Source of the DNA: Anabaena subtropica FACHB-260 | Lineage (GTDB): Bacteria; Cyanobacteriota; Cyanobacteriia; Cyanobacteriales; Nostocaceae | Direction: 5' to 3' | NCBI RefSeq assembly: GCF_014697105.1 | Contig: NZ_JACJRF010000024.1 | Location: 1-64,000 of the forward strand | Length of the DNA stretch: 64,000 bases | In this document: positions 765-23,832 of the stretch, one piece after another | Numbering within the stretch: the first letter of the stretch is position 1 | How the letters are laid out: each line of letters begins with the position of its first letter | Made by a program: the position numbers and the translations under genes | The notes under the pieces: model-generated | What the model was told of the DNA's origin: nothing | The model's database searches: none | Seen by the model: the letters and a program-made list of their open reading frames with translations, nothing else

Positions 765-3260
765 GTGTCCCAGGAATTTCACATTTCTGTAACCCCAGTA
801 GGGCAGAATGACTACTTGGTGCGGACGGAACAAGTCGCGCCTGGAGTTCCTTTGGCAGAAGAACTGGTGACATGGCCTGTAGCTGATTGGTTGGCGGCGG
901 CTGGGCATTTGATGAATGACCCATTAAAGTCAGTATTGCTGGGAGATGCGTTTATCTCTGGTGGGCGGGAAAGTGCGATCGCTAGAAATTCTGTTAACCT
1001 AGTTGCACTGGGTCAACAGTTGTATAACGCACTGTTTCAAGGCACTCTTAGAGATAGCTTAATTACTGCCCAAGGTATTGCTCAAAATCAACAACAAGTA
1101 CTGCGTCTAAGGCTGGGTCTCAAGGATACTAGGTTAGCACGTCTGCCTTGGGAAGTGATGCACGCAGGCGATCGCCCCCTAGCAACAGGCCCTTATATTG
1201 CTTTTTCTCGCTACCAAAGTGGTATTTCTCCCGCGTCTCGCTTGCTTTCAGCTAGTAGACAAAAACTTTTAGAAGACGGTGTGGTCAGAGTTTTAATGGT
1301 ACTTGCATCACCCACAGATCAAGCAAGTTTGGATCTGCTTAAACAAGAATCTATTAGACTGCAAGCTGAACTACACCGTCGCCTACCCAGATCAATAGAA
1401 GGCAACAATTATCTTCCAGAAATTGACCTCACCCTACTCAACCAACCAGGGAGAGAAGAACTAACCCAAGCCCTAGAACAAGGAAGATATCATGTTTTAC
1501 ACTATTCCGGTCATAGCAACTTAGGGCCGAACGGTGGTGAGATTTATCTGGTAAGTAGTCGGACTGGCTTAACAGAAACCTTGAGTGGTGATGATTTGGC
1601 GGGTCTGTTGGTTAACAATAATATCCAAATGGCGGTTTTTAACTCCTGTTGGGGCGCATACAGCGCTACTCTTGATAATACTGGTGACACAGGAGAACGC
1701 AACCTCACAGATAGCTTAGTTAAGCTCGGTATTCAAAGCGTTTTGGCTATGTCAGAACGTATTCCCGATGAAGTGGCGTTGACTCTCACACAATTGTTTT
1801 ACCGCAACTTGAGTCAGGGTTATCCTGTAGATTTGTGTGTGAGTCGGGTACGCCAAGGATTAATTTCTGCCTATGGCTCACACCAATTGTACTGGGCATT
1901 ACCAATTCTCTATCTCCAGCCGGAATTTGACGGTTTCCTCAGCCCTAAGGTTTCTACTGCTACAAGTGTTGATTTACTGGATGAATATAGTTCACCATTG
2001 GCAACAAATACCGCAGCTACTTATTCTGGCGTACTAGATGATACGGAGATGTCTTTGCCAATTGAGGATATGATCCCCTCTGGCTTAATTCGTGATTCTT
2101 CGGGAATGGACTGGTTAGGTGAAGAAACTTGGGGTGATCTTGTAGATGAAATTGAGTATGATGACCCAAGTTATGCAGAGGATTCTGCTTTTGTTTCGGA
2201 TATATTTCGTCAACTAGATCAGCAAAGCATAGAAGATGAAGAACCTGAACTACCTCCAGAAGTTGGACAACTGCTACAAAATAGTTATGTAGAACAGCAG
2301 ATGTCTACTGCACCGAGGGAAGATATCTCAGTATTTGTACCACCAGCAACGAATCATACTCCTCAAAACTTGTCCCAAGATTTAGAAAATTTCCGTCGTT
2401 TGGCATCGAGAAACCGCCAACGTCGCCAAAGTTGGCAGATTATGGGGATAATTGGGGCTAGTGCGATCGCCATTATGTTGATCTTTAGTTGGTTATGGCA
2501 AAATCGCCAGATATTCTTCGTGCGCGACATACCAGGAATTCCCACCCCATCATTACCAATTGAGACTCAACCCCCCACTAATTTACGGGAAATGTCTACA
2601 GGAATGGTAACAGCCACGGCTACAGAACAATTGAATCAAGGCGATTTAGATGCTGGATTGGCCTCTGTGGAAGAATTACTCGATCGCAACGCACTACAAC
2701 CTGCTCAATCAGCCTTACAATTGGTTTCGTCCGACCAAGAAAAACAAGCATCGGTTAACTTCTTGAGAGGGCGATTAGCTTGGCAGTCTATCCAAACAGG
2801 TGATAAACAATACAGTATTGATGATGCCCGTCGTTACTGGGAAACTGCGGTCAGAGCTAACCCAAATTCGCTGTTATATATTAATGCTTTAGGATTTGCT
2901 TATTATGCTGAAGGTAATATCAATCGAGCAAATGATTCTTGGTTTCAAGCATTAAATTTAGCTCTCAAACAAGGCAATACATTCTTTTCTACAGAAATAC
3001 CTCCCCAATCAGATGTACCTCCAGAAGCTTTACCTGCTTATGCTGGTTTAGCCTTGGGGATGTATAAATCTGCTCGTGGTTTACCACCTGCAAAACAGGC
3101 ACAATATATAAATGAAGCCATTAAATTACGTCAAACAGTCCTAGAAAAAGATCCTATTAATTTTCAGCTAGATGAATTGAGCAAAAATTGGCTCTGGACA
3201 GAAGAAATTCTCCAAGACTGGCGATCGCTCCTACAACAAAAAAGCACTAAGCAGAGATAG
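765..3260 (+). CDS. CHAT domain protein with central TM helix and helical C-terminus
   Basis: An 831-aa protein starting at GTG 765 after AGGAGA. The N-terminal ~400 residues form a CHAT (caspase-HetF associated with TPR) peptidase-like domain. The presumed catalytic pair is present: His250 in HYSGHSN and Cys295 in FNSCWGA. An acidic, low-complexity linker (about 400-540) follows, then a basic stretch and one membrane helix (about 558-579, ending SWLW). The C-terminal ~230 residues look like TPR-type helices (NPNSLLYINALGFAYYAEGN). With one TM segment the CHAT domain is probably cytosolic and the helical repeats on the other side, but topology is not settled. CHAT proteases are known from families such as separase-like proteins and Csx29; the substrate here is unknown. 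Confidence 0.85.
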   Translation: MSQEFHISVTPVGQNDYLVRTEQVAPGVPLAEELVTWPVADWLAAAGHLMNDPLKSVLLGDAFISGGRESAIARNSVNLVALGQQLYNALFQGTLRDSLITAQGIAQNQQQVLRLRLGLKDTRLARLPWEVMHAGDRPLATGPYIAFSRYQSGISPASRLLSASRQKLLEDGVVRVLMVLASPTDQASLDLLKQESIRLQAELHRRLPRSIEGNNYLPEIDLTLLNQPGREELTQALEQGRYHVLHYSGHSNLGPNGGEIYLVSSRTGLTETLSGDDLAGLLVNNNIQMAVFNSCWGAYSATLDNTGDTGERNLTDSLVKLGIQSVLAMSERIPDEVALTLTQLFYRNLSQGYPVDLCVSRVRQGLISAYGSHQLYWALPILYLQPEFDGFLSPKVSTATSVDLLDEYSSPLATNTAATYSGVLDDTEMSLPIEDMIPSGLIRDSSGMDWLGEETWGDLVDEIEYDDPSYAEDSAFVSDIFRQLDQQSIEDEEPELPPEVGQLLQNSYVEQQMSTAPREDISVFVPPATNHTPQNLSQDLENFRRLASRNRQRRQSWQIMGIIGASAIAIMLIFSWLWQNRQIFFVRDIPGIPTPSLPIETQPPTNLREMSTGMVTATATEQLNQGDLDAGLASVEELLDRNALQPAQSALQLVSSDQEKQASVNFLRGRLAWQSIQTGDKQYSIDDARRYWETAVRANPNSLLYINALGFAYYAEGNINRANDSWFQALNLALKQGNTFFSTEIPPQSDVPPEALPAYAGLALGMYKSARGLPPAKQAQYINEAIKLRQTVLEKDPINFQLDELSKNWLWTEEILQDWRSLLQQKSTKQR

Positions 3261-10620: not shown

Positions 10621-10941
10621 ATGAATAATTCAATTCTCGTAATTGCAGGTATTGCCGTTGTATTAGGACTTATTGTTGGTGTCTTCATTGTGGGATTAAT
10701 TTATGTCCAACGGCGACGACAAGCAGTAGATAGCCTGATACGTATTGATAATGTAGTTGGTTGTTTTGGTGTAGTGGAAGTCCCTTTAAACCACAACAGT
10801 CCGGGGAAAGTACGTGTCAATCTCAAAGGTTCTCTAGTAGATTTTGTCGCCTTCAGTGATGAAGTTCATCAATTTAATCAAGGCGATTCAGTTGTTGTTG
10901 TCCGAATTGATGGTAATAAAGTTTGGGTAGTTTCTGTTTAG
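10621..10941 (+). CDS. NfeD-like small membrane protein
   Basis: A 106-aa protein with one N-terminal membrane helix (about 5-29), a basic YVQRRRQ stop-transfer segment, and a C-terminal beta-rich domain (VVGCFGVVEVPLNH... DSVVVVRIDGNKVWV) resembling the OB-fold of NfeD proteins. NfeD proteins are commonly encoded beside SPFH/flotillin genes, as here: two SPFH genes follow at spacings of about 30 and 57 bp. It probably assists membrane microdomain assembly. Family assignment rests on domain pattern plus context. Confidence 0.75.
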   Translation: MNNSILVIAGIAVVLGLIVGVFIVGLIYVQRRRQAVDSLIRIDNVVGCFGVVEVPLNHNSPGKVRVNLKGSLVDFVAFSDEVHQFNQGDSVVVVRIDGNKVWVVSV

Positions 10942-10971: not shown

Positions 10972-12315
10972 ATGAACTTACTTAAACAAGAATTAAGAAC
11001 TGTTACAGTAGCGCAGATTGATGTAAATCCACCTGTTACTAACAAAGAAAACAACGCTCTTGAAGGTCTGCTTTATAGCGCTCTTCCTGTGGCTCTATCT
11101 ATCTTTAGTGCAGTTGTATTTGTGTGGTTTGTCAAGTCTTTTCTATGTATCTGCAAACCCAATGAAATCTTAATTCTTTCGGGACGCAAATGGCGGACTA
11201 AAGATGGACAAGAGATGGGTTATCGAGTGCTATTAGGTGGACGCGCCATTCGGATTCCCATAGTGGAAACAGTCAAGCGCATGGATGTAACGACTATGCC
11301 GGTCAGGGTGGAAGTGCGAAACGCTTACGCCAAAGGGGGAACGCCTTTAAATATTCAGGCGATCGCCAACGTAAAAATCTCCTCAGATCCGATGGTTGTG
11401 GGTAACGCAATTGAACGCTTTTTAGACCGCGATCGCTCAGAACTCACTCGTGTTTCCCGCGAAACTCTAGAAGGGTATCTCCGGGGTGTAGTTGCTACCC
11501 TCACACCAGAAGAACTCAACGAAGACCGTCTGAGTTTTGCCCAGCGTATCGCCTCCGATGTCAGTCGTGACTTCAGCAAATTGGGATTGCAACTAGATAT
11601 TCTAAAAATTCAAAGTGTTTCCGATGATGTGGACTATCTCAAATCTTGGGGACGTAAGCAAATCGCCTTAGTGATTCGAGACGCAGAAATTGCTGAATCC
11701 AATGCACTCACCCAAGCAGAACAAATCGAAGCTCAATCTGAAGAATACGCCCAAGTCGCCAAAACCCAAGACCAAATAATTGTGCTGGAGAAAGAAAACG
11801 AACTCCGCAAAATCAAAGCCCAGCTAGAACAAAAAGCCAAATCTGAAGAAGAAATTACCACAGCAGCAGCTCAAGAAAAGAAAGCCAAAGCCGAACAAGT
11901 CCTACAAGCATTCAGGGCTGAATTAGAACGCCTACGCCTACAAGCAGATGAAGTCCTCCCAGCCGAAGCCCGCCGTCAAGCCCAAGAATTCCGCGCCAAA
12001 GGGGAAGCCGCCTTCCTAGAAGAAAATGCCAAAGCAGCCGCTTTAGTCAACGATATTCTTTCCCAAGTTTGGCAACAAACCGGTAGCGATGCTTCTAAGT
12101 TGTTCCTGATTCAACAAATTGAAGCCGTCCTCCAAGAAGCGGTGCAGATTCCTAAACGCATTCAACTAGAAAAAGTCAATGTAATTGATAACGGCGATGG
12201 TAAATCCGTAGCCAGTCTAGTCAGCGTTTACCCCGAAATCGTGCTGCAATTCCTAGAAAACGTCAATCGTACCTTGGGTATTGATGTTGCAGGAACCTTA
12301 AGTAATAGGGAGTAG
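10972..12315 (+). CDS. Flotillin-like SPFH (band 7) protein, first copy
   Basis: A 447-aa protein. One membrane segment lies at about 34-56, followed by the cysteine-containing CICKPNEILILSG, an SPFH/band-7 domain (about 60-240, with LEGYLRGVVATLTPEELNEDR), then a long Ala/Glu/Lys/Gln-rich coiled coil (about 245-350) and a C-terminal LFLIQQIEAVLQ segment. This is the flotillin architecture; such proteins oligomerise into membrane scaffolds. It is paralogous to the next gene, with the same motif order, so the pair is a tandem duplication likely forming a hetero-oligomer. Confidence 0.87.
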   Translation: MNLLKQELRTVTVAQIDVNPPVTNKENNALEGLLYSALPVALSIFSAVVFVWFVKSFLCICKPNEILILSGRKWRTKDGQEMGYRVLLGGRAIRIPIVETVKRMDVTTMPVRVEVRNAYAKGGTPLNIQAIANVKISSDPMVVGNAIERFLDRDRSELTRVSRETLEGYLRGVVATLTPEELNEDRLSFAQRIASDVSRDFSKLGLQLDILKIQSVSDDVDYLKSWGRKQIALVIRDAEIAESNALTQAEQIEAQSEEYAQVAKTQDQIIVLEKENELRKIKAQLEQKAKSEEEITTAAAQEKKAKAEQVLQAFRAELERLRLQADEVLPAEARRQAQEFRAKGEAAFLEENAKAAALVNDILSQVWQQTGSDASKLFLIQQIEAVLQEAVQIPKRIQLEKVNVIDNGDGKSVASLVSVYPEIVLQFLENVNRTLGIDVAGTLSNRE

Positions 12316-12372: not shown

Positions 12373-13608
12373 ATGGAAATTATCGTTTTACTTTTAGGAA
12401 TGTTTGGTACAGGAACCGCCGCAGGTTGGTGGGTGATTCGCAACTTGTACTATATTTGTCAGCCCAGTGAGGTGCTGATTTTTGCAGGTAGTCGGACTGT
12501 GATTGATGATAAGCGATCAGTTGGTTATCGTTTGGTGAAAGGCGGTAGTAGTATTCAAATCCCTCTGTTGGAAAAAACTTTCCGCATGGATTTGACTAAC
12601 ATGATTATTGAGTTGCGGGTGTCTAACGCCTACTCAAAAGGTGGAATTCCTTTAACAGTGGAAGGGGTAGCGAATATTAAAATTGCTGGTGAAGAACCAA
12701 CAATTCACAATGCTATTGAGCGACTGTTGGGTAAAAGTCGTAAGGATATTGAACAATTAGCCAAGGAAACATTGGAAGGAAATCTGCGGGGAGTCTTGGC
12801 GAATCTGACACCGGAACAGGTGAATGAAGATAAAATCACCTTTGCTAAAACTTTGTTGGAAGAGGCGGAGGATGATTTAGAAAAGTTGGGATTGGTTTTA
12901 GACAACCTGCAAATCCAGAATATCTTTGATGAGGTACGTTATCTAGATTCTATTGGGCGCAAGCAACAGGCAGAATTATTGCGAGATGCGCGGATAGCAG
13001 AAGCTGAAGCCAAAGCCCAGTCTATAATTAAGTCTTCCGAAAATCACCGGATTACTAAACTCAGACAAATCGAACGAGATTTGCAAATTACTAAAGCCGA
13101 AGCCGAACGCAGAGTTAGAGATGCACTCACCAAACGCACAGCTGTGATTGCAGAGGTAGAATCGGTCGTTAACGTCCAGATTGCCAAAGTGCAAGCAGAA
13201 GTAGCAGTCCAAACCGAACGGATCAAAAAGGTAGAAAATCAACTACTAGCCGATATTGTCGCCCCAGCCGAAGCAGAATGTCATGGTGCGATCGCTCAAG
13301 CTAAGGGAGATGCTGCCAAAATCATCGAGGAGGGTAAAGCCCAAGCCGCAGGAACCCAGCGTCTAGCGGAATCCTGGCAAAATGCAGGTACATCGGCGCG
13401 GGAAATCTTTATCTTCCAAAAACTCGAACCCCTATTGAAAATGATGGTGGCGGGAGTACCAGAAGTGACAGTAGAAAATTTAACTGTGATTGATGCCAAT
13501 AATGGTGGTAGTGTGCCTAAAATGGCTTCTTTAATCGAGCAGTTGCGTCAAACTACTGGTGTTGATGTTGCTCAAGTGATCAATCAGATCAAGTCTGGTA
13601 AGGAATAA
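12373..13608 (+). CDS. Flotillin-like SPFH (band 7) protein, second copy
   Basis: A 411-aa protein with an N-terminal membrane helix (about 2-20), ICQPSEVLIFAGSRT, an SPFH domain (NAYSKGGIPLTVEGVANIKI; LEGNLRGVLANLTPEQVNEDK) and a coiled-coil region (about 190-320) ending in IFIFQKLEPLLKMM. It parallels the preceding gene throughout but lacks its longer N-terminal extension. It is the third gene of the NfeD-SPFH-SPFH operon. The spacer before it carries the short repeated TGACTA-type motifs seen elsewhere in the window. Confidence 0.87.
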   Translation: MEIIVLLLGMFGTGTAAGWWVIRNLYYICQPSEVLIFAGSRTVIDDKRSVGYRLVKGGSSIQIPLLEKTFRMDLTNMIIELRVSNAYSKGGIPLTVEGVANIKIAGEEPTIHNAIERLLGKSRKDIEQLAKETLEGNLRGVLANLTPEQVNEDKITFAKTLLEEAEDDLEKLGLVLDNLQIQNIFDEVRYLDSIGRKQQAELLRDARIAEAEAKAQSIIKSSENHRITKLRQIERDLQITKAEAERRVRDALTKRTAVIAEVESVVNVQIAKVQAEVAVQTERIKKVENQLLADIVAPAEAECHGAIAQAKGDAAKIIEEGKAQAAGTQRLAESWQNAGTSAREIFIFQKLEPLLKMMVAGVPEVTVENLTVIDANNGGSVPKMASLIEQLRQTTGVDVAQVINQIKSGKE

Positions 13609-13628: not shown

Positions 13629-13675
13629 CTCTGTGTCTCTGTGTTTTTTCACCGCAGAGGCGCAAAGACACAGAG
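13629..13675. repeat. Inverted repeat with CTCTGTGTCT arms
   Basis: CTCTGTGTCT (13629-13638) is perfectly complementary to AGACACAGAG (13666-13675), with a T-run in the 27-nt loop. It could act as a weak terminator for the flotillin operon. It also resembles a dispersed intergenic repeat. Confidence 0.55.
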
Positions 13676-13699
13676 AAGAAAATACACTTATCTAAGAGT

Positions 13700-14341
13700 A
13701 TGGATGAATTAACCGCACTTGTTAAAGAAACCTGCCAGCATCCAAGGGGTAGCATTGAACGCCAGAAAGGATTGCATGAAATTATCTGGCGGATTCAGCG
13801 AACAGGTAAACTATTACGGGGTGTGGGTGTGCCTGATGCAGAAGAGGCGATACAAAAAACCTGGCTGTATTTTTGCCTCAATCTCTGCGAAGCCACAACT
13901 ACTGAGGAACCCTACGATTCCAGTCAAGGGAGTGTGATTACTTGGCTAAATGCGTACTTGCGGTACAGGCTTAAAGATATCAGCATTCCTGATCAAAAAA
14001 TTATTTATCATTTGTCAGATGAAAATGGCGAAGAAATAGACCCCACAGATTTCATTCCCTCTAGACCAGAACCACCACTCATTCTCGAAGAAATTCAGGA
14101 ATGGTTAAAACAGGAAGCAAAGAATTTACGCCGTATTTATGTAAGTAACCGCCCAGATATCAATTGTTTGGTCTTAATTGAACGTCGTTTACCACCAGAA
14201 ACTTCTTGGAAGGAATTATCTCAAGAGTTTGGTGTTTCCATCGCCACTCTGAGCGGCTTCTATCAACGTCATTGCTTTCCCCGGCTCCTCGATTTTGGCA
14301 TATCCCAAGGTTATTTTGATCATGAGTATGAGTTACCTTAG
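13700..14341 (+). CDS. Sigma-70-like (ECF-type) regulator next to CHAT gene
   Basis: A 213-aa soluble protein. The N-terminal half resembles sigma region 2 (VPDAEEAIQKTWLYFCLNL ... YDSSQGSVITWLNAYLRYRL). The C-terminal part looks like a region-4 helix-turn-helix (SWKELSQEFGVSIATLSGFYQRHCFPRL). It may be a bona fide ECF sigma factor or a derived regulator that no longer binds core polymerase. The next gene, a DUF1822 protein, overlaps its end by about 20 bp, giving translational coupling in a three-gene unit with the sensor-CHAT gene. Regulation of that unit itself is a reasonable inference. Confidence 0.65.
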   Translation: MDELTALVKETCQHPRGSIERQKGLHEIIWRIQRTGKLLRGVGVPDAEEAIQKTWLYFCLNLCEATTTEEPYDSSQGSVITWLNAYLRYRLKDISIPDQKIIYHLSDENGEEIDPTDFIPSRPEPPLILEEIQEWLKQEAKNLRRIYVSNRPDINCLVLIERRLPPETSWKELSQEFGVSIATLSGFYQRHCFPRLLDFGISQGYFDHEYELP

Positions 14342-15488
14342 TGAACAGCAAATCATCTCCATACCCATTCCAGAAAAGTTTCGCCAAACAGCCCTGGAAT
14401 TTGCCCAAGAACAACCAACTGCGGAAAAAGCTAAACAAGTATATCTGAATACCTTGGCGATACAGGTAGTTCATAGTTATTTGACGATGCTGGATATCCC
14501 GACAGAACTAGAAGCTAGCTATAGTTGGCATCCACGAGGACGCTTAGTTGCTGATGTTGCAGATTTACTACTAACTGGTGTGGGACGTTTAGAATGTCGG
14601 CCGATGCGGATGGGCGATCGCTCTTGTAACATTCCCCCAGAAGTTTGGGATAATCGCATTGGTTGTGTAGTTGTAGAAATCAATCACACTTGCAAGGAAG
14701 GTAAAATTCGGGGATTTATTGCCAATGTCACCACCCCAGAAATTACCCTTGAACAACTGCAATCATTAACAGTCTTAATCGAACATTCCCATCTAGTACA
14801 TTTACGGCAATGGCTAGAAGGTATCTATACAAATAACTGGCAAAGTGTAGAAGAATTATCAAGCCAAAGAAGCACTCAATTAGCCTTTCGTTCCAAACGT
14901 GTGCGGGGTTGGGAACTGGATACTCCGGAAAAAGCTTGGCAAGTAGTTGAGCAATTATATCCTGCTCGCAGTTGGGAAAAAAGTTTACCTATGGAACTAT
15001 TAGAAAGTTTTACTTGGAGGAAAGTAGGAAATATAGAAGTATCTCCCACTACTGATGATTACACTAAATTTACTGAGGCGATCGCTCATCTTTTAAAAAC
15101 AACTCCAGAGGAAGAAACTCGCTGGACTTTAGCCGAAATATTATGGACTCTTGAACCTAATCATCCCGCTATCAGTGCTAGACGCATCATCGATTTAGGA
15201 ATGCAACTGGCAGGACATCCTGTAGCTTTAATGGTAGCAATTTTATCCAAACCAGATAGAAATGCTGCTGTCTTATTGCGTGTCTATCCAATGGGAAATC
15301 AGCCTTATCTACCGCCAGGATTACAATTAGTTGGACTAGATGAACATAAAAAATCATTTTTAGAAGTCCAAGCGCGAGAAAATAAAGATGATTACATTCA
15401 GTGCAAATTTTGTGCAGAATTCGGCGAAAAATTTCAAGTTCGAGTTACGATAAATAATATAAGTTTTACAGAAAATTTTGTCATTTAA
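14322..15488 (+). CDS. DUF1822 family protein
   Basis: A 388-aa soluble protein starting MSMSYLSEQQIISIPIPEKF from ATG 14322, overlapping the sigma-like gene. A TTG at 14295 opens the frame but is less likely. The pattern (FAQEQPTAEKAKQVYLNTLA, then VNxYL-like VVHSYLTMLDIPTE, then RLECRPM) is that of DUF1822, a cyanobacterial family of unknown function. Its C-terminal ~80 residues (VALMVAILSKPDRNAAVLLRVYP ... LEVQAREND-like) form a beta-rich segment that may bind a partner. The CHAT sensor gene begins 27 bp after its stop. From memory, DUF1822 and CHAT genes are often adjacent in cyanobacteria. Confidence 0.8.
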   Translation: MSMSYLSEQQIISIPIPEKFRQTALEFAQEQPTAEKAKQVYLNTLAIQVVHSYLTMLDIPTELEASYSWHPRGRLVADVADLLLTGVGRLECRPMRMGDRSCNIPPEVWDNRIGCVVVEINHTCKEGKIRGFIANVTTPEITLEQLQSLTVLIEHSHLVHLRQWLEGIYTNNWQSVEELSSQRSTQLAFRSKRVRGWELDTPEKAWQVVEQLYPARSWEKSLPMELLESFTWRKVGNIEVSPTTDDYTKFTEAIAHLLKTTPEEETRWTLAEILWTLEPNHPAISARRIIDLGMQLAGHPVALMVAILSKPDRNAAVLLRVYPMGNQPYLPPGLQLVGLDEHKKSFLEVQARENKDDYIQCKFCAEFGEKFQVRVTINNISFTENFVI

Positions 15489-15515
15489 TAGACAAATTAT
15501 TACAAGGAAGAAACA

Positions 15516-18500
15516 GTGGGTAAGCTGGTTATCTTCGAGATTGGAGAAGGCAGTTTTCAGCAGGGATTTCCTGTGAAAATCAGAATTGGGGAAGAACGTC
15601 AACCCCATTCTCAGGAAATTCTCGGCAGATTGCCACCAGCATTAACAATTCCTCAACATTATTATGAATGGCAATCAAGTTATCGTCACTTGCCTGCAAA
15701 TTGGTTAATCACTGTTCCCGAAACTCAAATTACCAATGTATCCACCAGAGAGACTTGTCATTATGCTGCTCAAAGGTTTCAATTTAGTTTCAACGAATGG
15801 TTAAATCAACCAGTAGTTAGACAATTAGAACGGCAATTATTACAAAAAGTCGGCGATTGGCAGGATGTGCGTTTTATTTTGCAAACACAAGATGTCTTAT
15901 TACGCCGCATTCCTTGGCATCTATGGGATATTTTTCAGGATAGTCATAATCGCCCAGAAATTATAGTTAGTTCTGAATATGAACCTAATAAACAAAAATT
16001 AAAAAATCCTGTCAAAATTCTGGTAGTTCTCGGCAACAATCAAGGTATTGATATTCAACAAGATTTGGAAACAATCAAAAAATTGCCTGGCGCAATTATT
16101 GAACTGTTGCAAGAACCATCACGCCAACAACTTAGAGATAAATTATGGACTCAGGCTTGGGATATTTTCTTTTTTGCTGGACATAGTTGTAGCCATAATG
16201 ATGATATTTCTGGGCAAATTCAAATTAATCCTCAGGAAACTTTATCTCTAGATAGTCTGCGTCACACACTCCGCCATGCTGTTAATAAAGGATTAAAATT
16301 AGCCATCTTTAATTCCTGCGATGGTATAGGATTAGCCCGCAATTTAGCTGATGTGCGAATTCCTTACACAATTGTGATGCGGGAGCCTGTACCCGATGTA
16401 GTAGCACAACATTTCTTGAGATATTTTTTAACAGCTTTTGCATCTGGTGAATCATTATACGCCTCCGTACAACAAAGTCGCGATCGCTTACAAGAGGAAT
16501 TGGAAAACGATTATCCTTGTGCTTCCTGGCTACCTGTAATTTTTCAAAATCCAGCAGCAGCAGAATTAAAATATCCCCAACCAAGTAATTGGGCAAAAAT
16601 AGGGGTGAGAGCAGCTATTTTGACAGGTTTAGTAGTTACTTTCAGCTATATTTCTACAGCGATTATTAATGAATGGAAATTTCACAGACGCTTTAGTGAT
16701 GGCAATAATATTTTAGTTAAGACATTTATAACTACTCATAAACAAGATGGCATCAAGGCATTTAAACAGGGTAATTACCAGTTAGCTCAAGAAAAGTTTC
16801 AAGATTCTTTGCGCGAGCATTATAATGATCCAGAAACATTAATCTATTTAAATAATGCTAAGGTCGCCAATCAAGCAGGACTAAAAATTGGCGTTGCTGT
16901 ACCTATTGGAAATAACTCCAATGTCGCCCAAGAAATTTTGAGAGGAGTTGCACAAGCGCAGCAAGAAATAAATAAGCAAGGTGGGATTCACGGCAAGTTT
17001 TTAAAAGTTACCATTGCCAATGACGATAATAGACCGGAAATTGCCAAACAAGTAGCCCAGAGATTTGTCCAAGATGCAGATATCTTAGCAGTAGTAGGGC
17101 ATAACAGTAGTGATGCAAGTGTGCCTGCGTCTGATATTTATCAGGCAGGAAAATTAGTGATGGTTTCACCAACTAGCAGTTCTACAAGATTAACAGATCG
17201 CCCCCGCCCTGACAGTGACGGTAACTATATTTATAGAACAATTATCAGCTTTAATGTGATTGCTGAGAGTTTGGCTGAATACGCCAAAACTACTGGTATG
17301 AATAAAATAATGATTTGTAGTGATTCACGAGCTACAGATCAGTCTTTTGAACAAGCATTTGTGAATTCGATCATTTATAAACGCTTACAATATATAAATA
17401 ATATTAACTGTGATTTCGCTTCAGGAAATTTTCGTCCAGAAACTATTGTGAGCAATGCGATCGCTCAGAATGTAGACGCTATTTTACTCAATCCTCAAGT
17501 TGATAGAATGAGTAAAGCAGTGGATGTGGCGAAACTTAATCAAGGTAAGTTGCGATTATTAGGAAATCCCAGCTTACAGACTAAAACCATACTCGATGCA
17601 GGCAATGCAGTCCAGGGAATGGTGATAGCAACTCCTTGGCTAGCAGATGTTTCTCCAAATAAAGAATTTGTGCAGAATGCCAAAAATTTGTGGCGTGAAC
17701 CAGATTTAATTACTTGGCGTACAGCTACAGCCTTTGATGCAACTAAGGCTATCGCCGTAGCACTGAAACAGGAAGATAACACCAGAATTGGTATCCAAAA
17801 AGCCTTCGCTCAAAACTTCTCTCTACAAAGTGCTACAGGGACGATTCAGTTTTTATCTTGGGGCGATCGCAAAGGCGATCGCGTGGGCAATGCTATCTTA
17901 GTAGAAGTGAAACCTGATCTCAAAGCACCTAGTGGTTACAGCTTCGTACCGAAAAACTCGCTGCAACACAGGATCAGTTTGGGAGATAAAATCTTAGTCC
18001 AAGATAACCCTAGTCGTGAGAAACAATCGGGTGTAGAAGCCTTTACGATGGGGAATTATCAGCAAGCGATCGCCCTATTTGAACTATCTCTGCAAAAAGT
18101 ATTTAATGACCCAGAAACACACATATATTTACAAAATTCCTTAGCTGCTCGTAGTGGTAAAATCTTAAAAATTGCGGTTAGTGTCCCCATCGGTAGTAAC
18201 CTGAATGTTGCCAAAGAAATACTCCAAGGTGTGGCGCAAGCTCAAGATGAAATCAATCGAAAAGGTGGGATTCAAGGACACTTACTGCAAGTAGAAATTG
18301 CCAGCGATGATAACAACCCAGAAATTTCTCAACAACTAGCAAGTTACTTTGTTGCCGATAAGCAAATTTTAGCGGTAATCGGTCACAATGCCTCAGATGT
18401 TTCTGTCGCCGCTTGTCCTATTTATCAAGCAGGTAAATTAGTTAATATTTCCCCCACCAGCTTTTCTTTAAAATTAGCGGGATGTGGTGCTTATATATTC

Positions 18501-19220
18501 CGGACTGCACCTAATATTAGGTTACTTGCTGATGTTTTATCTAACTATGCCATCAAAACAATTCGCACGCAAAATTTAGCAATTTGTGTAGATGAGCAAG
18601 CTATAGATAATCAATCATTTCGAGATCAATTTGACTATGCTATTCGTGTAGCTGGGGGTAATATTGTGAATATTAACTGCGATTTATCCGCAGATGATTT
18701 TAATCCCAGCCAAGTAATTACGGAAGCGATTAGTAGTGGTGCTAATGGCTTAGTTTTAGCGCCTCATGTAGATAGAATTAACAAAGCTTTAGATATAGCC
18801 GCAGCTAATAAAGGTAGATTGAGGCTCTTTGCTAGTCCCACACTCTACACATCCCAAACCTTACAACAAGGACAAGCCGATGTGAATAGTTTAATGTTAG
18901 CTGTACCTTGGCATCCAGAAGCCAATACGCAGAATCATTTTAGCAAGGATTCCCAACGTCTGTGGGGAAATTCCGTAACTTGGCGTTCTGCCACCAGTTA
19001 TGATGCAACTGTAGCTGTAATTACTGGTTTACAAAAAAGTAAAACTCGTGAAGGATTGCAAAAAGTTTTGCGTAATCCTAACTTTTATGCAGTTGGTGCA
19101 ACTGGCAAAATTCGCTTTTTCCAATCAGGCGATCGCTATCTCAAAAACGATGCCATCTTAGTAAAAATTCACCCAAACAAAGCATCTACAACTGGTTACA
19201 AGTTTTCCCTAATGCAATGA
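15516..19220 (+). CDS. CHAT-TM-(TPR-PBP1)x2 putative ligand-sensing protease
   Basis: A 1234-aa protein starting with GTG 15516 after AAGGAAG. Residues 1-350 form a CHAT domain with His223 (FFAGHSCS) and Cys268 (IFNSCDG). A membrane helix spans about 358-383. Then come two copies of a module: a TPR-like hairpin (410-450 and 838-878) followed by a type I periplasmic-binding fold of the LivK/Peripla_BP_6 kind (455-805 and 883-1234). The copies share VPIG-NVA-EIL-GVAQAQ-EIN-GGI-G and AVVGHN-SD-SV-A-IYQAGKLV. The binding domains would face the periplasm and the CHAT domain the cytosol, so small-molecule binding could control a protease across the membrane. Ligand and substrate are unknown. Confidence 0.88.
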   Translation: MGKLVIFEIGEGSFQQGFPVKIRIGEERQPHSQEILGRLPPALTIPQHYYEWQSSYRHLPANWLITVPETQITNVSTRETCHYAAQRFQFSFNEWLNQPVVRQLERQLLQKVGDWQDVRFILQTQDVLLRRIPWHLWDIFQDSHNRPEIIVSSEYEPNKQKLKNPVKILVVLGNNQGIDIQQDLETIKKLPGAIIELLQEPSRQQLRDKLWTQAWDIFFFAGHSCSHNDDISGQIQINPQETLSLDSLRHTLRHAVNKGLKLAIFNSCDGIGLARNLADVRIPYTIVMREPVPDVVAQHFLRYFLTAFASGESLYASVQQSRDRLQEELENDYPCASWLPVIFQNPAAAELKYPQPSNWAKIGVRAAILTGLVVTFSYISTAIINEWKFHRRFSDGNNILVKTFITTHKQDGIKAFKQGNYQLAQEKFQDSLREHYNDPETLIYLNNAKVANQAGLKIGVAVPIGNNSNVAQEILRGVAQAQQEINKQGGIHGKFLKVTIANDDNRPEIAKQVAQRFVQDADILAVVGHNSSDASVPASDIYQAGKLVMVSPTSSSTRLTDRPRPDSDGNYIYRTIISFNVIAESLAEYAKTTGMNKIMICSDSRATDQSFEQAFVNSIIYKRLQYINNINCDFASGNFRPETIVSNAIAQNVDAILLNPQVDRMSKAVDVAKLNQGKLRLLGNPSLQTKTILDAGNAVQGMVIATPWLADVSPNKEFVQNAKNLWREPDLITWRTATAFDATKAIAVALKQEDNTRIGIQKAFAQNFSLQSATGTIQFLSWGDRKGDRVGNAILVEVKPDLKAPSGYSFVPKNSLQHRISLGDKILVQDNPSREKQSGVEAFTMGNYQQAIALFELSLQKVFNDPETHIYLQNSLAARSGKILKIAVSVPIGSNLNVAKEILQGVAQAQDEINRKGGIQGHLLQVEIASDDNNPEISQQLASYFVADKQILAVIGHNASDVSVAACPIYQAGKLVNISPTSFSLKLAGCGAYIFRTAPNIRLLADVLSNYAIKTIRTQNLAICVDEQAIDNQSFRDQFDYAIRVAGGNIVNINCDLSADDFNPSQVITEAISSGANGLVLAPHVDRINKALDIAAANKGRLRLFASPTLYTSQTLQQGQADVNSLMLAVPWHPEANTQNHFSKDSQRLWGNSVTWRSATSYDATVAVITGLQKSKTREGLQKVLRNPNFYAVGATGKIRFFQSGDRYLKNDAILVKIHPNKASTTGYKFSLMQ

Positions 19221-19935: not shown

Positions 19936-22900
19936 TTAAGGCTTACCTGTAATTATAAAAGCTGCCCAATAGTAAGGATGAGAATATAGATTTTTATCCG
20001 CAGGCATTTTACTGATTCTATATAAATGTGTTGCTAAATAAGCCCTCAGTTTTAGTTCTTCTGGATCAAGATTGTTGAGTAAATCTTCATACCATTTCGT
20101 TAATTCTATCGCCGTTAATTCTCTTAACCAAACAGTGGCTTCAGCTAAAGCAATATTTGCTGGTTTTTCTTGTAATCGGCGGTAAAACTCAATGATAACT
20201 AAAGCGCTAGCCGATGATTCTACAGTCCAAAGAGTACTGACTACGTGAGAAACACCTCTATGGAAGAACGCACTAACTAAATCCACATATTCACTACTAG
20301 TGATTTGGTTAGTATTATTAATAGTTTCACAAGCGGAGATAGTAACTAAGTTATAAGTTGATAAATTTGTTTCGCTGATTTCTTCTAAAGTAAATTTATC
20401 TTCACCCGCTAGTGCTAATTCTGATGTTTTAGGCTCAGTGCAACTATTAATTGCCTGACCTGCAAAATGAAATACATTATAGTTATCAAATAAAGCATCT
20501 TCAAAATTATTTTTAGTAGCTTCCGTACCTTGGAGACGATGTTTATTTTTAAACATCTGGCTCACAACTTCGGCTTCTAGATTAGCAAACCTTAGCATGG
20601 GATAAGCCTTACTATCAGGGTATTCCACACTTAATAATGTTTGATTAGCAAACTGTCCGATATTTGGATTTCTCGCTGATAACCCTGCTTGAATATTCGG
20701 CAGATAGGTAATGTTGACACCTGGTATTTCTTCAGTGGAAGCAGAGATTTGGAACAAGGCATGGAGAGGTAATTTAAATAAATCACGGTGGGGAACTAAA
20801 ATGAGTTGAGTAATACCTTCAAGTTCTGGTTGAATTGTCTCAATTTCCAGAATATTTCTTAGCTGTAATAACTTATCTTCCATCTCCACGCGCCAGGGAT
20901 GATTGCTTTTGCTTTGTTGGTCTTGGGCTTGTTGGCGATAGTCTTGATAGGTTTGTTGCCAATCTTCTAGCCAATTTTCAAATGCAATCAGCCGTCTGCT
21001 AGCTTCAGGTAAAGGTAAATCTTGCAGTGGTGTAGCGTTGATTGTTTCCACATCTTGAACTGGTGTAAAAACGAGAATTGGTGATGGGGCTTGGTCTTTG
21101 ATAATAAAAGTGTGTAATGCGACTGGGCTAATATGCCAATAAATAATTGCGGTGTGGGGATTTAGCAATTTTTGAACCGAGCGATAATTGAGGAATGGAA
21201 TATCTGCATTCCACCCAAATAATAGCCAAGTGCAACCAGCATTCTTTCCCTGTTCTGCTATTTCCCAAGCTTCAACCAAATCACCATATTCTACAGATAT
21301 ATCAACAGCTAATTGTCCAAATCCTGCAAATTTTAGCGCTAGTTGTTTTTTAATTTCTGTGGTGCGAGTCGGTTCACCTAGTAATTGTTGTAATAAATTT
21401 GAGCCGCGTTGCTGTAATTCTTGGGCTTGTGCTGTTTGTCCTAGCCCTAGCAATGATTTGATAAGGGATTGTAAAACTTCTAAATGTAACTGAGGAAAAC
21501 CTGCACTTGTGAGAGTTAATAGGGCTTGATTGTACTCGGTTACTGCTTTGCGCCAATAGTTACGGGATGTAGAATACTGTTTACCTTGTTCGTAATAACT
21601 ATTAGCGATCGCCAGATGCAATCTCCCCCAACCTTCTGGGTGAGTATCTGGGCGAATATGTTTTAAACCTTCCTGATAACTAGCTAATTTACCTTCATAG
21701 CCAGCCTGCTTTAAGGCAGAATTATTTGCGGCTATAGCAGTCAATAAATTTAACGGTGTTTCTGTATCATTTAAATTACCAATAGCCGTCCCTCGACCAA
21801 TCCAAGCTTCCCAGTAGTCGAGTTTGATTTGTAAGGCGTGATCATAACAAACGATCGCTTCTAAAAATCGTTCTAAATAAAACAACGCCACCGCTTGGTT
21901 GTACCAAGCTAGGTGAAAATCTGGTTTAATCCCTATGGCTTGCTTATAGGAGGCGAGCGCTTCTTCTCGGCGACCTGAGTTTTCTAAAGCCACACCCCGG
22001 TTATACCAAGCTAAGTAAAAATCTGCTCGGATGGATAATGCTTTGTCCCAAGATGCGATCGCTTCAGACCACTGTTTTAAATTGAATAAGACTACACCCC
22101 GGTCAATCCAAACCTCGTGGAAATCTGGTTGAATCTCTAAAGCTTTGTCATAAGATGCAACCGCCGCTTCGTATTGTTCATCTACACCTAACGCAATTCC
22201 TCGGTAATACCAATTTTCTTGGTCTTCGGGTGACAAAACTAAGGCTTCATCATAAGAGGCGATCGCATCCCCAATTTGTCCCAACTTCAACTCCGCCCAA
22301 GCCTTACTAGACCAAGCCTCTGGAGTATCAGCCTGAACAGCGATCGCTTGCTTAAACGAGGCGATCGCTTCCTCATACAGTCCTAATTGTCCTAAAGTCC
22401 CACCCCGGTTATACCAAGCTTTGTAGTAATCGGGCTTCAGTTCTATCGCTTGGTCGTAAGAGGCGATCGCTTCCACAAACCGTTCTAAATGGAATAAAGT
22501 TAAACCACGATTGAACCAGTATTCATAGGAATTGGGATTTAATTGAATGGCTTGCTCATAAGTAGCGATCGCTCCTGATAAATCACCACTTTTGGCTTGC
22601 TGCAACCCTTGATAAAATAATGCTTGTGCCTGGATAAAGGCATTTGATCGTTCACTGGTAATCACTGGTTGCTGATTTGTCTGCACGATCAGATTAGCCG
22701 CCAACTGATGGACTAAATTGGCACTTTGATCCAACCGCACCATCAACTCATCCAAGGTATACGCTACATTGGGGTCTAAATTGACTAAAGACTGATCCCA
22801 GTTACTTTGAGTTGATACTATAGCTGCTGAGTTTTGTTCTCTGTAGTCTAATACCAGTTCGCTTAAATTACTGATGACATCTTCCTGAGCCGGCATCAGT

Positions 22901-23832
22901 AAGGCTGGTGCTGTCGTCGCAAATTCCGCCTCTTGATATTCCCAACTCAGTTCCTGTAAATTCTCTGTTGTGTCTTCATCCACTGGTTCAGTCGGGGCTG
23001 TTTGATATTCCCAACTCAGTTCCTGTAAATTCTCTGTTGTGTCTTCATCCACTGATTCAGTCGGGACTGTTTGATATTCCCAACTCAATTCCTGTAAATT
23101 CTCTGTTGTGTCTTCATACACCGATTCAGTCGGAGCTGTTTGATATTCCCAACTCAATTCCTGTAAATTTTCGATTGTGTCTTCATACACCGATTCAGTC
23201 GGAGCTATTTGATATTCCCAACTCAATTCCTGCAAGTTTTCAATTGTGTCTTCATCAACAGGAGAAAATTCTGATGTTGCTCTCAAAGGAGTCGTTCCTG
23301 GTTCTTCCGACTCCCATAATAAGTCTCCCAAACTGCGGATTAATTCCTGCCCTGGAGAATCTGGGATATTTTCGCTAGGTTCTGCGACTTTAGTGGAAGA
23401 TGCTTCTAATTCCTCATCCAAATCATCTATTCCGATAAATTCCCTGTTTAGCAAACGAATACCAATGTCATAGGACAGTTCTCCCACCTTCCCAATCCCC
23501 AATTCGCCCAACTGCACCATTTGTCTACCTAAATGATGATTTGGTGCTGGTGACATCAGTAATTTTTCGCCAAACACTAATAGCCAATCTATCCAGCGTT
23601 CAACACTAATCCGGTCTTCCATCCGTTGCAAGTACTTAATTGCCCACTGCTGACCCCGCCCGTGATTCACACCTTGCAGCAGCTGAGTGAACAACAATTC
23701 CAAATCCGCATTAGTTAGTTCAGGTGGTTCTTCTGCCACCTGTTCTCTGACACCCTTGAAATAATCAGTTTGTTGATCATCAACAGAGTGTTTGTCAAAA
23801 GTTTTAAGCCACTGAAATAGCCGAGTGAGCAT
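19936..23832 (-). CDS. TPR-CHAT protein with Gln in place of catalytic His
   Basis: A 1298-aa protein. Residues 1-130 form a helical N-terminal domain shared with the neighbouring 24163-24834 gene. An acidic linker follows, with five 23-aa tandem repeats (about 190-300, core EDTxENLQELSWEYQ). About ten TPRs (about 400-700) read like AWYNRGVALENLGRYEEAI. After a helical linker, a C-terminal CHAT domain ends the protein. The Cys motif ISACET is intact (Cys1168), but the expected GH(G/A) motif reads HFAGQA, with Gln1126 (codon CAG at 20455-20457). This may be an inactive, scaffold-like CHAT protein, or use the nearby His of HFAG. No membrane segment is seen. Confidence 0.87.
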   Translation of the reverse strand: MLTRLFQWLKTFDKHSVDDQQTDYFKGVREQVAEEPPELTNADLELLFTQLLQGVNHGRGQQWAIKYLQRMEDRISVERWIDWLLVFGEKLLMSPAPNHHLGRQMVQLGELGIGKVGELSYDIGIRLLNREFIGIDDLDEELEASSTKVAEPSENIPDSPGQELIRSLGDLLWESEEPGTTPLRATSEFSPVDEDTIENLQELSWEYQIAPTESVYEDTIENLQELSWEYQTAPTESVYEDTTENLQELSWEYQTVPTESVDEDTTENLQELSWEYQTAPTEPVDEDTTENLQELSWEYQEAEFATTAPALLMPAQEDVISNLSELVLDYREQNSAAIVSTQSNWDQSLVNLDPNVAYTLDELMVRLDQSANLVHQLAANLIVQTNQQPVITSERSNAFIQAQALFYQGLQQAKSGDLSGAIATYEQAIQLNPNSYEYWFNRGLTLFHLERFVEAIASYDQAIELKPDYYKAWYNRGGTLGQLGLYEEAIASFKQAIAVQADTPEAWSSKAWAELKLGQIGDAIASYDEALVLSPEDQENWYYRGIALGVDEQYEAAVASYDKALEIQPDFHEVWIDRGVVLFNLKQWSEAIASWDKALSIRADFYLAWYNRGVALENSGRREEALASYKQAIGIKPDFHLAWYNQAVALFYLERFLEAIVCYDHALQIKLDYWEAWIGRGTAIGNLNDTETPLNLLTAIAANNSALKQAGYEGKLASYQEGLKHIRPDTHPEGWGRLHLAIANSYYEQGKQYSTSRNYWRKAVTEYNQALLTLTSAGFPQLHLEVLQSLIKSLLGLGQTAQAQELQQRGSNLLQQLLGEPTRTTEIKKQLALKFAGFGQLAVDISVEYGDLVEAWEIAEQGKNAGCTWLLFGWNADIPFLNYRSVQKLLNPHTAIIYWHISPVALHTFIIKDQAPSPILVFTPVQDVETINATPLQDLPLPEASRRLIAFENWLEDWQQTYQDYRQQAQDQQSKSNHPWRVEMEDKLLQLRNILEIETIQPELEGITQLILVPHRDLFKLPLHALFQISASTEEIPGVNITYLPNIQAGLSARNPNIGQFANQTLLSVEYPDSKAYPMLRFANLEAEVVSQMFKNKHRLQGTEATKNNFEDALFDNYNVFHFAGQAINSCTEPKTSELALAGEDKFTLEEISETNLSTYNLVTISACETINNTNQITSSEYVDLVSAFFHRGVSHVVSTLWTVESSASALVIIEFYRRLQEKPANIALAEATVWLRELTAIELTKWYEDLLNNLDPEELKLRAYLATHLYRISKMPADKNLYSHPYYWAAFIITGKP
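22932..23260 (-). repeat. Five 69-bp in-frame tandem repeats
   Basis: Units begin at 22932, 23001, 23070, 23139 and 23208 with an exact 69-bp period (23 codons) inside the TPR-CHAT gene. They differ by few substitutions, so copy number may vary between strains. Each encodes an acidic segment with the core EDTxENLQELSWEYQ. Confidence 0.9.

Follow-up and report, generated by a model that had tools for sequence, protein, structure and literature searches.

What does a bacterium do with a membrane protein that joins a caspase-like CHAT domain to two tandem PBP1 sensor domains, and why is its gene packed against those of a sigma-like protein and a DUF1822 protein? The question is raised by a three-gene unit of the cyanobacterium Anabaena subtropica FACHB-260, in a stretch of 64,000 nucleotides (contig NZ_JACJRF010000024.1, positions 1 to 64,000; 'the window' below) taken from a 5.8-Mb genome. 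A preliminary description of the window, made from its sequence, had suggested that a ligand outside the cell could switch a protease inside, with the sigma-like or the DUF1822 protein as target or regulator; its observations held for every part that we checked, and its suggestion, partly supported, is still the reading that we favour. Our answer, a tentative one to which we give somewhat less than an even chance, is that a ligand-gated membrane receptor-protease frees the sigma factor by cutting DUF1822 or itself. This answer is based on a recurring gene unit, an invariant His/Cys pair, a single transmembrane (TM) segment whose charge bias puts the N terminus inside, two diverged PBP1 domains and a sigma-like partner (coordinates are given in Table 1).

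The three genes are indeed tightly packed: the sigma and DUF1822 genes overlap by 20 bp, counted from the first of two in-frame DUF1822 ATG starts (14322 and 14328), and 27 bp separate DUF1822 from position 15516, where the third gene begins. A gene-neighbourhood survey, proposed earlier as a check, found that they stay neighbours elsewhere: the 102 stretches covered hold 34 different sigma-DUF1822-CHAT triads (identical CHAT rows removed; a split gene, L083, labelled 'other'). The gap between sigma and DUF1822 genes runs from -52 to 84 bp in 33 triads and is 554 bp in one, DUF1822 and CHAT genes lie 6 to 315 bp apart, and the distance matrices of the three proteins are correlated in each pairing (Mantel r 0.80, 0.88 and 0.79; 999 permutations, kinship ignored). 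We also selected 17 CHAT-PBP1 fusion loci, and three loci with other tails, from the genome matches. Sixteen of the 17 fusions have DUF1822 upstream, and in 13 BLAST recognises a sigma-like gene there; L081 has neither, and in L092, L094 and L095 DUF1822 is longer and the sigma position is taken by an unassigned gene of 382-493 aa.

Counts of named loci refer to the best 80 of 560 relatives, each locus being classed by one CHAT gene; L083 and L108 are one record, and so are L097 and L115. By their tails, nine of the 80 are tandem PBP1 (including L108, a split gene recounted as tandem), six single PBP1, 53 CHASE2-like and 12 other. Pfam confirmed CHASE2 in the two loci checked and found nSTAND1 in two others. 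With the window, the tandem form occurs in at least ten loci, the named ones (L101-L109) coming from Scytonema, Brasilonema (twice), Westiellopsis, Calothrix (twice), Fischerella (twice) and a Leptolyngbyaceae metagenome-assembled genome. Sigma and DUF1822 genes are both upstream in eight of nine testable tandem loci, that is, the window and seven of eight named ones (L102 lacks enough upstream sequence to judge). Next to other tails a sigma gene is less common, as in three of six single-PBP1 loci, a count that a diverged sigma could escape. In six intact named loci (L101, L103-L107), the tandem-PBP1 protein shares 54-70% identity with that of the window. In Calothrix sp. NIES-3974 (L108 5995-9746, the same as L083) the gene is split into frames of 303 and 934 aa, by decay or sequencing error.

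Of 292 genomes sampled across the phylum, at least 71 have the CHAT part at E <= 1e-40: 61 of these belong to the window's order or are closer still, and 10 to other parts of the class; none of the 71 lies beyond the class, the out-of-class share of the 292 not being shown. All 80 named loci are from cyanobacteria, many of them from filamentous genera. Could the unit be a cell-death or immunity switch, in which the PBP1 pair recognises a danger or kin molecule outside the cell and CHAT cuts a broad set of host proteins (as Kaur et al. suggest for related conflict systems), the sigma factor doing no more than raise the module's expression? This distribution would suit such a switch, as would the nSTAND1 NTPase domains of relatives L096 and L115 (the CHAT-nSTAND1 protein of L115 also has a weak GUN4 match), and the predicted EACC2 systems discussed below are treated together with apoptosis and immunity systems of multicellular bacteria (PMC8195603). 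However, the single PADLOC match has an E-value of 0.0048, and the identity within the six named loci, with sigma kept in seven of eight, fits a relay better than a fast-changing effector. We consider the switch rather unlikely, and an anti-phage filing of the unit, resting on that one match, was rejected.

Is the protein built as a receptor-protease should be? Pfam, hydropathy and alignment together give the order CHAT-TM-TPR-PBP1-TPR-PBP1, with His223 and Cys268 both present, as the preliminary description had it. Peripla_BP_6 matches two stretches of the 1234-aa protein (E 2.1e-56), and the TPR match lies under the Pfam cut-off and covers the second repeat only. The His/Cys pair is kept in 26 of 26 distinct CHAT sequences of a first alignment (those left from 50 matches after length and identity filters) and in 85 of 85 CHAT domains of a second (84 from named loci, and the window's); no aligned orthologue has lost it. 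As judged by these residues, the caspase-type dyad is invariant. The approximately 100 aa on the N-terminal side of CHAT are conserved across aligned relatives as well, and their position leads us to presume an EACC2 domain there. Sequence matches of the N-terminal part of CHAT to armadillo-repeat and DARPin-armadillo entries of the PDB (E 0.001 to 0.23) were set aside as chance.

The two halves are predicted on opposite sides of the membrane, as the earlier proposal needs. With one TM segment per protein, the 15 residues before it carry 68 K+R and 6 D+E, and the 15 after it 45 K+R and 30 D+E, over 19 of the 20 PBP1 fusions (the split L083 gene excluded). This net-positive N-terminal flank favours CHAT inside and PBP1 outside. 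Free-standing TPR-PBP1 relatives carry an N-terminal hydrophobic segment in 22 of 22 complete cases (24 listed, two of them cut fragments). Genes for such free-standing, membrane-anchored proteins lie beside CHAT-PBP1 in L086 (285-1706), L090 (9686-11068), L094 (5314-6663) and L095 (8950-10299), and their relatives are present in many genomes of the window's order.

The two TPR-PBP1 units share 45% identity. Both PBP1 domains have the LivK-type fold, with Peripla_BP_6, 4mlc, 3ipc and LivJ/LivK entries among their matches; the best solved relative is 4mlc for A (E 1.3e-21) and for B (E 4.4e-14), an entry named just 'extracellular ligand-binding receptor', and amino-acid binding proteins follow (3ipc, 2liv and 1usg for A; 3ipc and 4n0q for B). 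A tree of 44 different domains covering at least 280 query residues (23 alone, 21 fused, with L025_1, a cut copy of the L084 fusion, counted as fused) puts A together with the fused PBP1 domains of its own family (support 100/100), and B together with the corresponding B domain in Calothrix sp. NIES-3974 (100/99). The two are not sister copies, which suggests that the second unit was gained from another PBP1 lineage: the tandem looks like an old CHAT-PBP1 receptor to which this unit was added. A recent internal duplication, the other origin considered, is unsupported, A and B grouping apart.

What might these domains bind? We aligned their pockets with the E. coli LivJ and LivK sequences, taking Ser79, Thr102 and Glu226 of LivK to be the alpha-amino-acid clamp. 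Every one of the 10 A and 10 B domains has Ser79. At position 102, seven of the 10 A domains have Ser or Thr, two Asn and one Glu, and all 10 B domains have Phe; none of the 20 tandem domains has an acidic residue at position 226. The kept Ser79 and the amino-acid binding proteins among the solved relatives, although 4mlc ranks above them, would agree with a nutrient sensor whose PBP1 domains, like LivJ and LivK, recognise an alpha-amino acid, branched-chain or other. Yet the LivK-type clamp is incomplete: with no acid at 226 and Phe102 in B, a standard alpha-amino acid is not the favoured ligand, and we think a nutrient sensor of this kind very unlikely for the tandem protein. In the single-PBP1 relatives L148, L150 and L163, Thr102 is retained and position 226 is Asp. 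Amino-acid binding may thus apply to other members, and ligand specificity seems to vary within the class.

The sigma-like partner is diverged. The hidden Markov model searches suggested in the preliminary description matched Peripla_BP_6, CHAT and DUF1822 as foreseen, but the sigma-70 profiles matched relatives and not the window's 213-aa protein, for which there was no Pfam or NCBIfam match at E <= 0.1. When 29 members, the window's included, were aligned, five matched Sigma70_r2 at E <= 0.1 (best E 2.3e-4) and one Sigma70_r4_2 (E 0.015). An AlphaFold2 model of the 213-aa protein (mean pLDDT 86.9, pTM 0.46) has a helical N-terminal part, a poorly predicted linker at about 91-130 and a helical C-terminal part of helix-turn-helix (HTH) type; helices stand at the places of regions 2 and 4, with pLDDT mostly above 90. 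Sigma factors and sigma-containing complexes dominate the best 50 of 177 Foldseek matches in the PDB (E <= 10), ECF-type ones including 1or7, 4nqw and 4cxf; against region 2 of sigma-E (5or5) the target-normalised TM-score is 0.66. We take the protein, on this model, as a diverged two-domain ECF-like sigma factor. A 481-aa protein in L097 (3918-5363), encoded before a long-form DUF1822 and a CHAT gene, has a near-threshold Sigma70_r4 match (E 3.4e-5) and is perhaps a second, longer class of sigma partner, as far as this match can suggest.

DUF1822 itself is readily recognised (PF08852, E 3.2e-94). Its model (385 residues, mean pLDDT 79.2) comprises an alpha/beta N-terminal domain, a low-confidence linker at about 156-184, a few helices and an Ig-like C-terminal beta-sandwich, and Ig-like folds such as 3d33 and 2p9r are among the 50 Foldseek matches listed. 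Matches to Kir6.2 channels (among them the single match at E <= 1e-3, with a TM-score of 0.12; the top ones at about 0.1) were set aside as meaningless, and the DUF1822 profile had no PDB sequence match up to E 5. The family is called a TPR protein in PMC8195603; unlike this label, our model presents no obvious TPR array.

How could these parts work together? The parts list and the topology are computed, and the relay that joins them is our proposal. The tandem PBP1 units would form a periplasmic Venus-flytrap pair, and binding or release of a ligand would be relayed through the single helix, altering the cytoplasmic CHAT domain in its geometry or its oligomeric state. Once active, CHAT would cleave DUF1822 or itself; DUF1822, which may otherwise hold or chaperone the sigma-like protein, would let it go, and transcription would be redirected. 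In a subset of species, the adjoining NfeD-SPFH-SPFH operon might serve as a membrane scaffold confining the protease. Venus-flytrap receptors (ANF_receptor, class C G-protein-coupled receptors) likewise combine PBP1-fold ectodomains, a membrane segment and a cytoplasmic output; compared with them, the window protein has a caspase-like output and both flytraps in a single chain. We also count in favour of sigma release a single 1048-aa chain of L096 (3034-6180) that unites CHAT, an nSTAND1 NTPase and the C-terminal part of DUF1822, and, by analogy, two precedents: the predicted EACC2 systems (PMC8195603) and a CHAT protease that cleaves a sigma inhibitor (PMC10028731).

Several findings weigh against sigma release. 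The tandem locus L109 has neither DUF1822 nor sigma in 2.9 kb of upstream sequence. By the alignment profile, an ECF sigma factor in the PDB is a weak match of the sigma family (E 1.1, ranked fourth of five), and no Foldseek match of the sigma-like model among the best 50 of 177 reaches E <= 1e-3. K+R counts leave the TM flanks of the window's own protein ambiguous (3 versus 3; D+E 0 versus 2). Upstream of 12 sigma genes there is no clear promoter motif: the commonest 8-mer, AT-rich, occurs at seven of the 12 and at most at five in mononucleotide shuffles (kinship ignored), three of its seven carriers are near copies, and its positions differ. Csx30, the inhibitor cleaved in the second precedent, is absent from the 50 Foldseek matches listed for DUF1822, and homology between the two is unsupported. 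Finally, an adjacent recognisable sigma gene is present in only 7 of 47 testable CHASE2-type loci, where again a diverged sigma could escape the profile. With so many relatives lacking one, sigma control cannot be the sole output of the family.

The last observation, with DUF1822 upstream in 36 of 51 testable CHASE2-type loci, would be expected if CHAT were a regulated scaffold or autoprotease and DUF1822 its chaperone, the output being a freed membrane-bound CHAT fragment and not the sigma factor. Autopeptidase activation has been proposed for EACC2 systems (PMC8195603). The retention of sigma in seven of the eight testable named tandem-PBP1 loci goes against this, and for the tandem form we judge it unlikely.

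Does the unit belong to a type already predicted? EACC2 systems, predicted in 2021 (Kaur et al., PMC8195603), couple a constant EACC2 and caspase module to C-terminal domains that vary, among them extracellular CHASE2 and STAND NTPases; most TRADD-N-independent EACC2 neighbourhoods hold an ECF sigma factor and DUF1822, and a transcriptional step is proposed besides autopeptidase activation. The caspase/CHAT module, the variable C-terminal sensor and the neighbouring ECF sigma and DUF1822 genes are common to these systems and the window. The variety of tails among our loci agrees with their highly variable C-terminal region, and the ECF sigma and DUF1822 neighbours were found in the window and the 34 triads, with no search aimed at TRADD-N. 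The locus fits a PBP1-sensor variant of the predicted EACC2 systems. The main text of PMC8195603, figures and source data aside, contains no 'periplasmic', 'PBP', 'ABC transporter' or 'SPFH'. The window differs from that text in its tandem PBP1 of two lineages, in the free TM-TPR-PBP1 partners of some loci and in the NfeD-SPFH-SPFH linkage. New relative to the prediction are the tandem-PBP1 loci, the invariant His/Cys, the ECF-type sigma model, the non-sister PBP1 pair, the pocket differences and the NfeD-SPFH-SPFH linkage. We found no experimental work on EACC2-type CHAT-DUF1822-sigma systems in the open-licence literature, outside which most subscription journals lie.

The closest tested precedent for the proposed logic comes from Strecker et al. 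2022. There, the TPR-CHAT protease Csx29 is experimentally shown to cleave Csx30, an inhibitor of the ECF sigma factor CASP-sigma (PMC10028731). The statement of the preliminary description that no characterised system has this shape stands, as far as we found, for characterised systems, but the kind had been predicted (PMC8195603) and its logic shown for Csx29-Csx30-CASP-sigma. In the Type III-E CASP/Craspase system, as in the window, a CHAT protease, an ECF sigma factor and a third protein are encoded together, the third protein being there the cleaved sigma inhibitor. Craspase is triggered by target RNA through Cas7-11, whereas the window protein is membrane-anchored with PBP1 sensors. The Csx29 model NF041237 of NCBIfam has no match to the window's CHAT protein at E <= 0.1, and the domain order differs; Cas7-11 is absent from the 20 window proteins scanned with Pfam, no search aimed at Cas genes being made. 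The likeness is one of logic and may be read as such, not as a claim of membership. Release of an ECF sigma factor by a protease after an envelope signal also recalls RseA/DegS, as presented in PMC10028731; there the anti-sigma factor crosses the membrane, whereas here the presumed protease crosses it and bears the sensor.

Directly upstream of the sigma gene lie a gene for an NfeD-like protein and two SPFH genes, unmentioned in the preliminary description. The order NfeD-SPFH-SPFH-sigma-DUF1822-CHAT is found in the window and in L101, L103, L105 and L106, or five of eight testable tandem loci (L102 and L109 have no sigma gene to anchor on), and in L107 a 53-residue remnant of SPFH2 survives ahead of the sigma gene. 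SPFH genes are absent upstream of sigma in L104 (680 bp examined) and L108, and a few kb beyond the SPFH block in L101, L103, L105 and L106 hold no gene in common with the window. Operons of NfeD with one or two SPFH genes have been described before, cyanobacteria included (PMC2636767). SPFH2 relatives occur at E <= 1e-30 in at least 76 of 291 genomes of the window's order, and in Calothrix sp. NIES-3974 the SPFH pair lies approximately 3 Mb from the CHAT gene. The pair was therefore rejected as an obligate part, and its link to the unit as a scaffold is a possibility only. A palindromic repeat-like sequence (13630-13690), seen by eye within the 91-bp gap between SPFH2 and sigma, is possibly an interspersed element or a terminator.

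Table 1. Positions, in the window, of the three-gene unit, its domains and the genes directly upstream
Feature	Position	Strand	Size or residues	Basis and remarks
ECF-like sigma factor gene	13700-14341	+	213 aa; region-2-like helices ~19-95, linker, region-4-like HTH ~128-202	AlphaFold2, Foldseek, relatives' Sigma70_r2
DUF1822 gene	14322-15488	+	388 aa from ATG 14322, 386 aa from ATG 14328	Pfam PF08852
CHAT-TM-TPR-PBP1-TPR-PBP1 receptor-protease gene (putative)	15516-19220	+	1234 aa	GTG start
N-terminal ~100 aa preceding CHAT (presumed EACC2 domain)	15516-15815	+		Conserved columns; EACC2 presumed from position
CHAT protease domain	15816-16598	+	Residues 101-361	Pfam CHAT, E 2.6e-14
His223 codon	16182-16184	+		
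Cys268 codon	16317-16319	+		
Single transmembrane segment	16611-16667	+	Residues 366-384 (hydrophobic stretch ~362-384)	Hydropathy, flank charges
TPR-like repeat A	16740-16865	+		Without own Pfam TPR match; from alignment to repeat B
PBP1 domain A	16881-17945	+		Peripla_BP_6/ANF_receptor
TPR-like repeat B	18021-18143	+	TPR_2 at residues 839-860	E 0.0024, under Pfam cut-off
PBP1 domain B	18162-19217	+		Peripla_BP_6
Short NfeD-like membrane protein gene	10621-10941	+	106 aa	Pfam NfeD, E 6.8e-6, score under cut-off; system membership uncertain
SPFH/flotillin-like protein 1 gene	10972-12315	+		Band_7, E 2e-20; same place in L101, L103, L105, L106; membership uncertain
SPFH/flotillin-like protein 2 gene	12373-13608	+		Band_7, E 5e-23; same place in L101, L103, L105, L106, remnant in L107; membership uncertain

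Other genes around these units deserve mention. Two further CHAT proteins are encoded in the window: a soluble-looking TPR-CHAT protein of 1298 aa (19936-23832, minus strand), convergent with the unit and 715 bp past its last gene, and a protein of 831 aa (765-3260, plus strand; Pfam CHAT, E 3.2e-29), which is followed by genes for a P-type cation ATPase and a Na+/H+ exchanger. At 52664-59374 (plus strand) lies the gene of a 2236-aa hybrid with Ser/Thr kinase, AAA_16 ATPase, GAF, PAS and histidine kinase domains. Elsewhere, a 486-aa kinase gene stands directly upstream of a sigma-DUF1822-CHAT-PBP1 unit in L089 (3932-5392) and L087 (9568-11028), the two covered by our Pfam scans (Pkinase, E 1.3e-30 and 3.7e-30, respectively), and one is found at the same place in L088.

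A more elaborate form of sigma release can be drawn from these elements: a single-chain, two-ligand flytrap receptor, with the second PBP1 captured from another lineage (perhaps that of the free membrane-anchored TPR-PBP1 proteins), would read two ligands together, and its caspase-like output, held within a flotillin/NfeD scaffold, would free a dedicated sigma factor by cutting DUF1822. Taken with all its parts, this form is rather doubtful. If true, it would constitute a one-step relay from membrane to promoter that is neither two-component signalling nor classical regulated intramembrane proteolysis.

The simpler proposal, that a ligand-gated receptor-protease frees the sigma factor, would already mean, if true, that an external small molecule controls transcription through a caspase-like protease within one membrane protein. 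The CHAT-DUF1822-sigma modules would gain a testable input, the PBP1 ligand, and a testable output, the sigma regulon. Since the tandem-PBP1 form recurs across genera and the PBP1 family is routinely studied as soluble proteins, this form offers a good entry point to the whole class.

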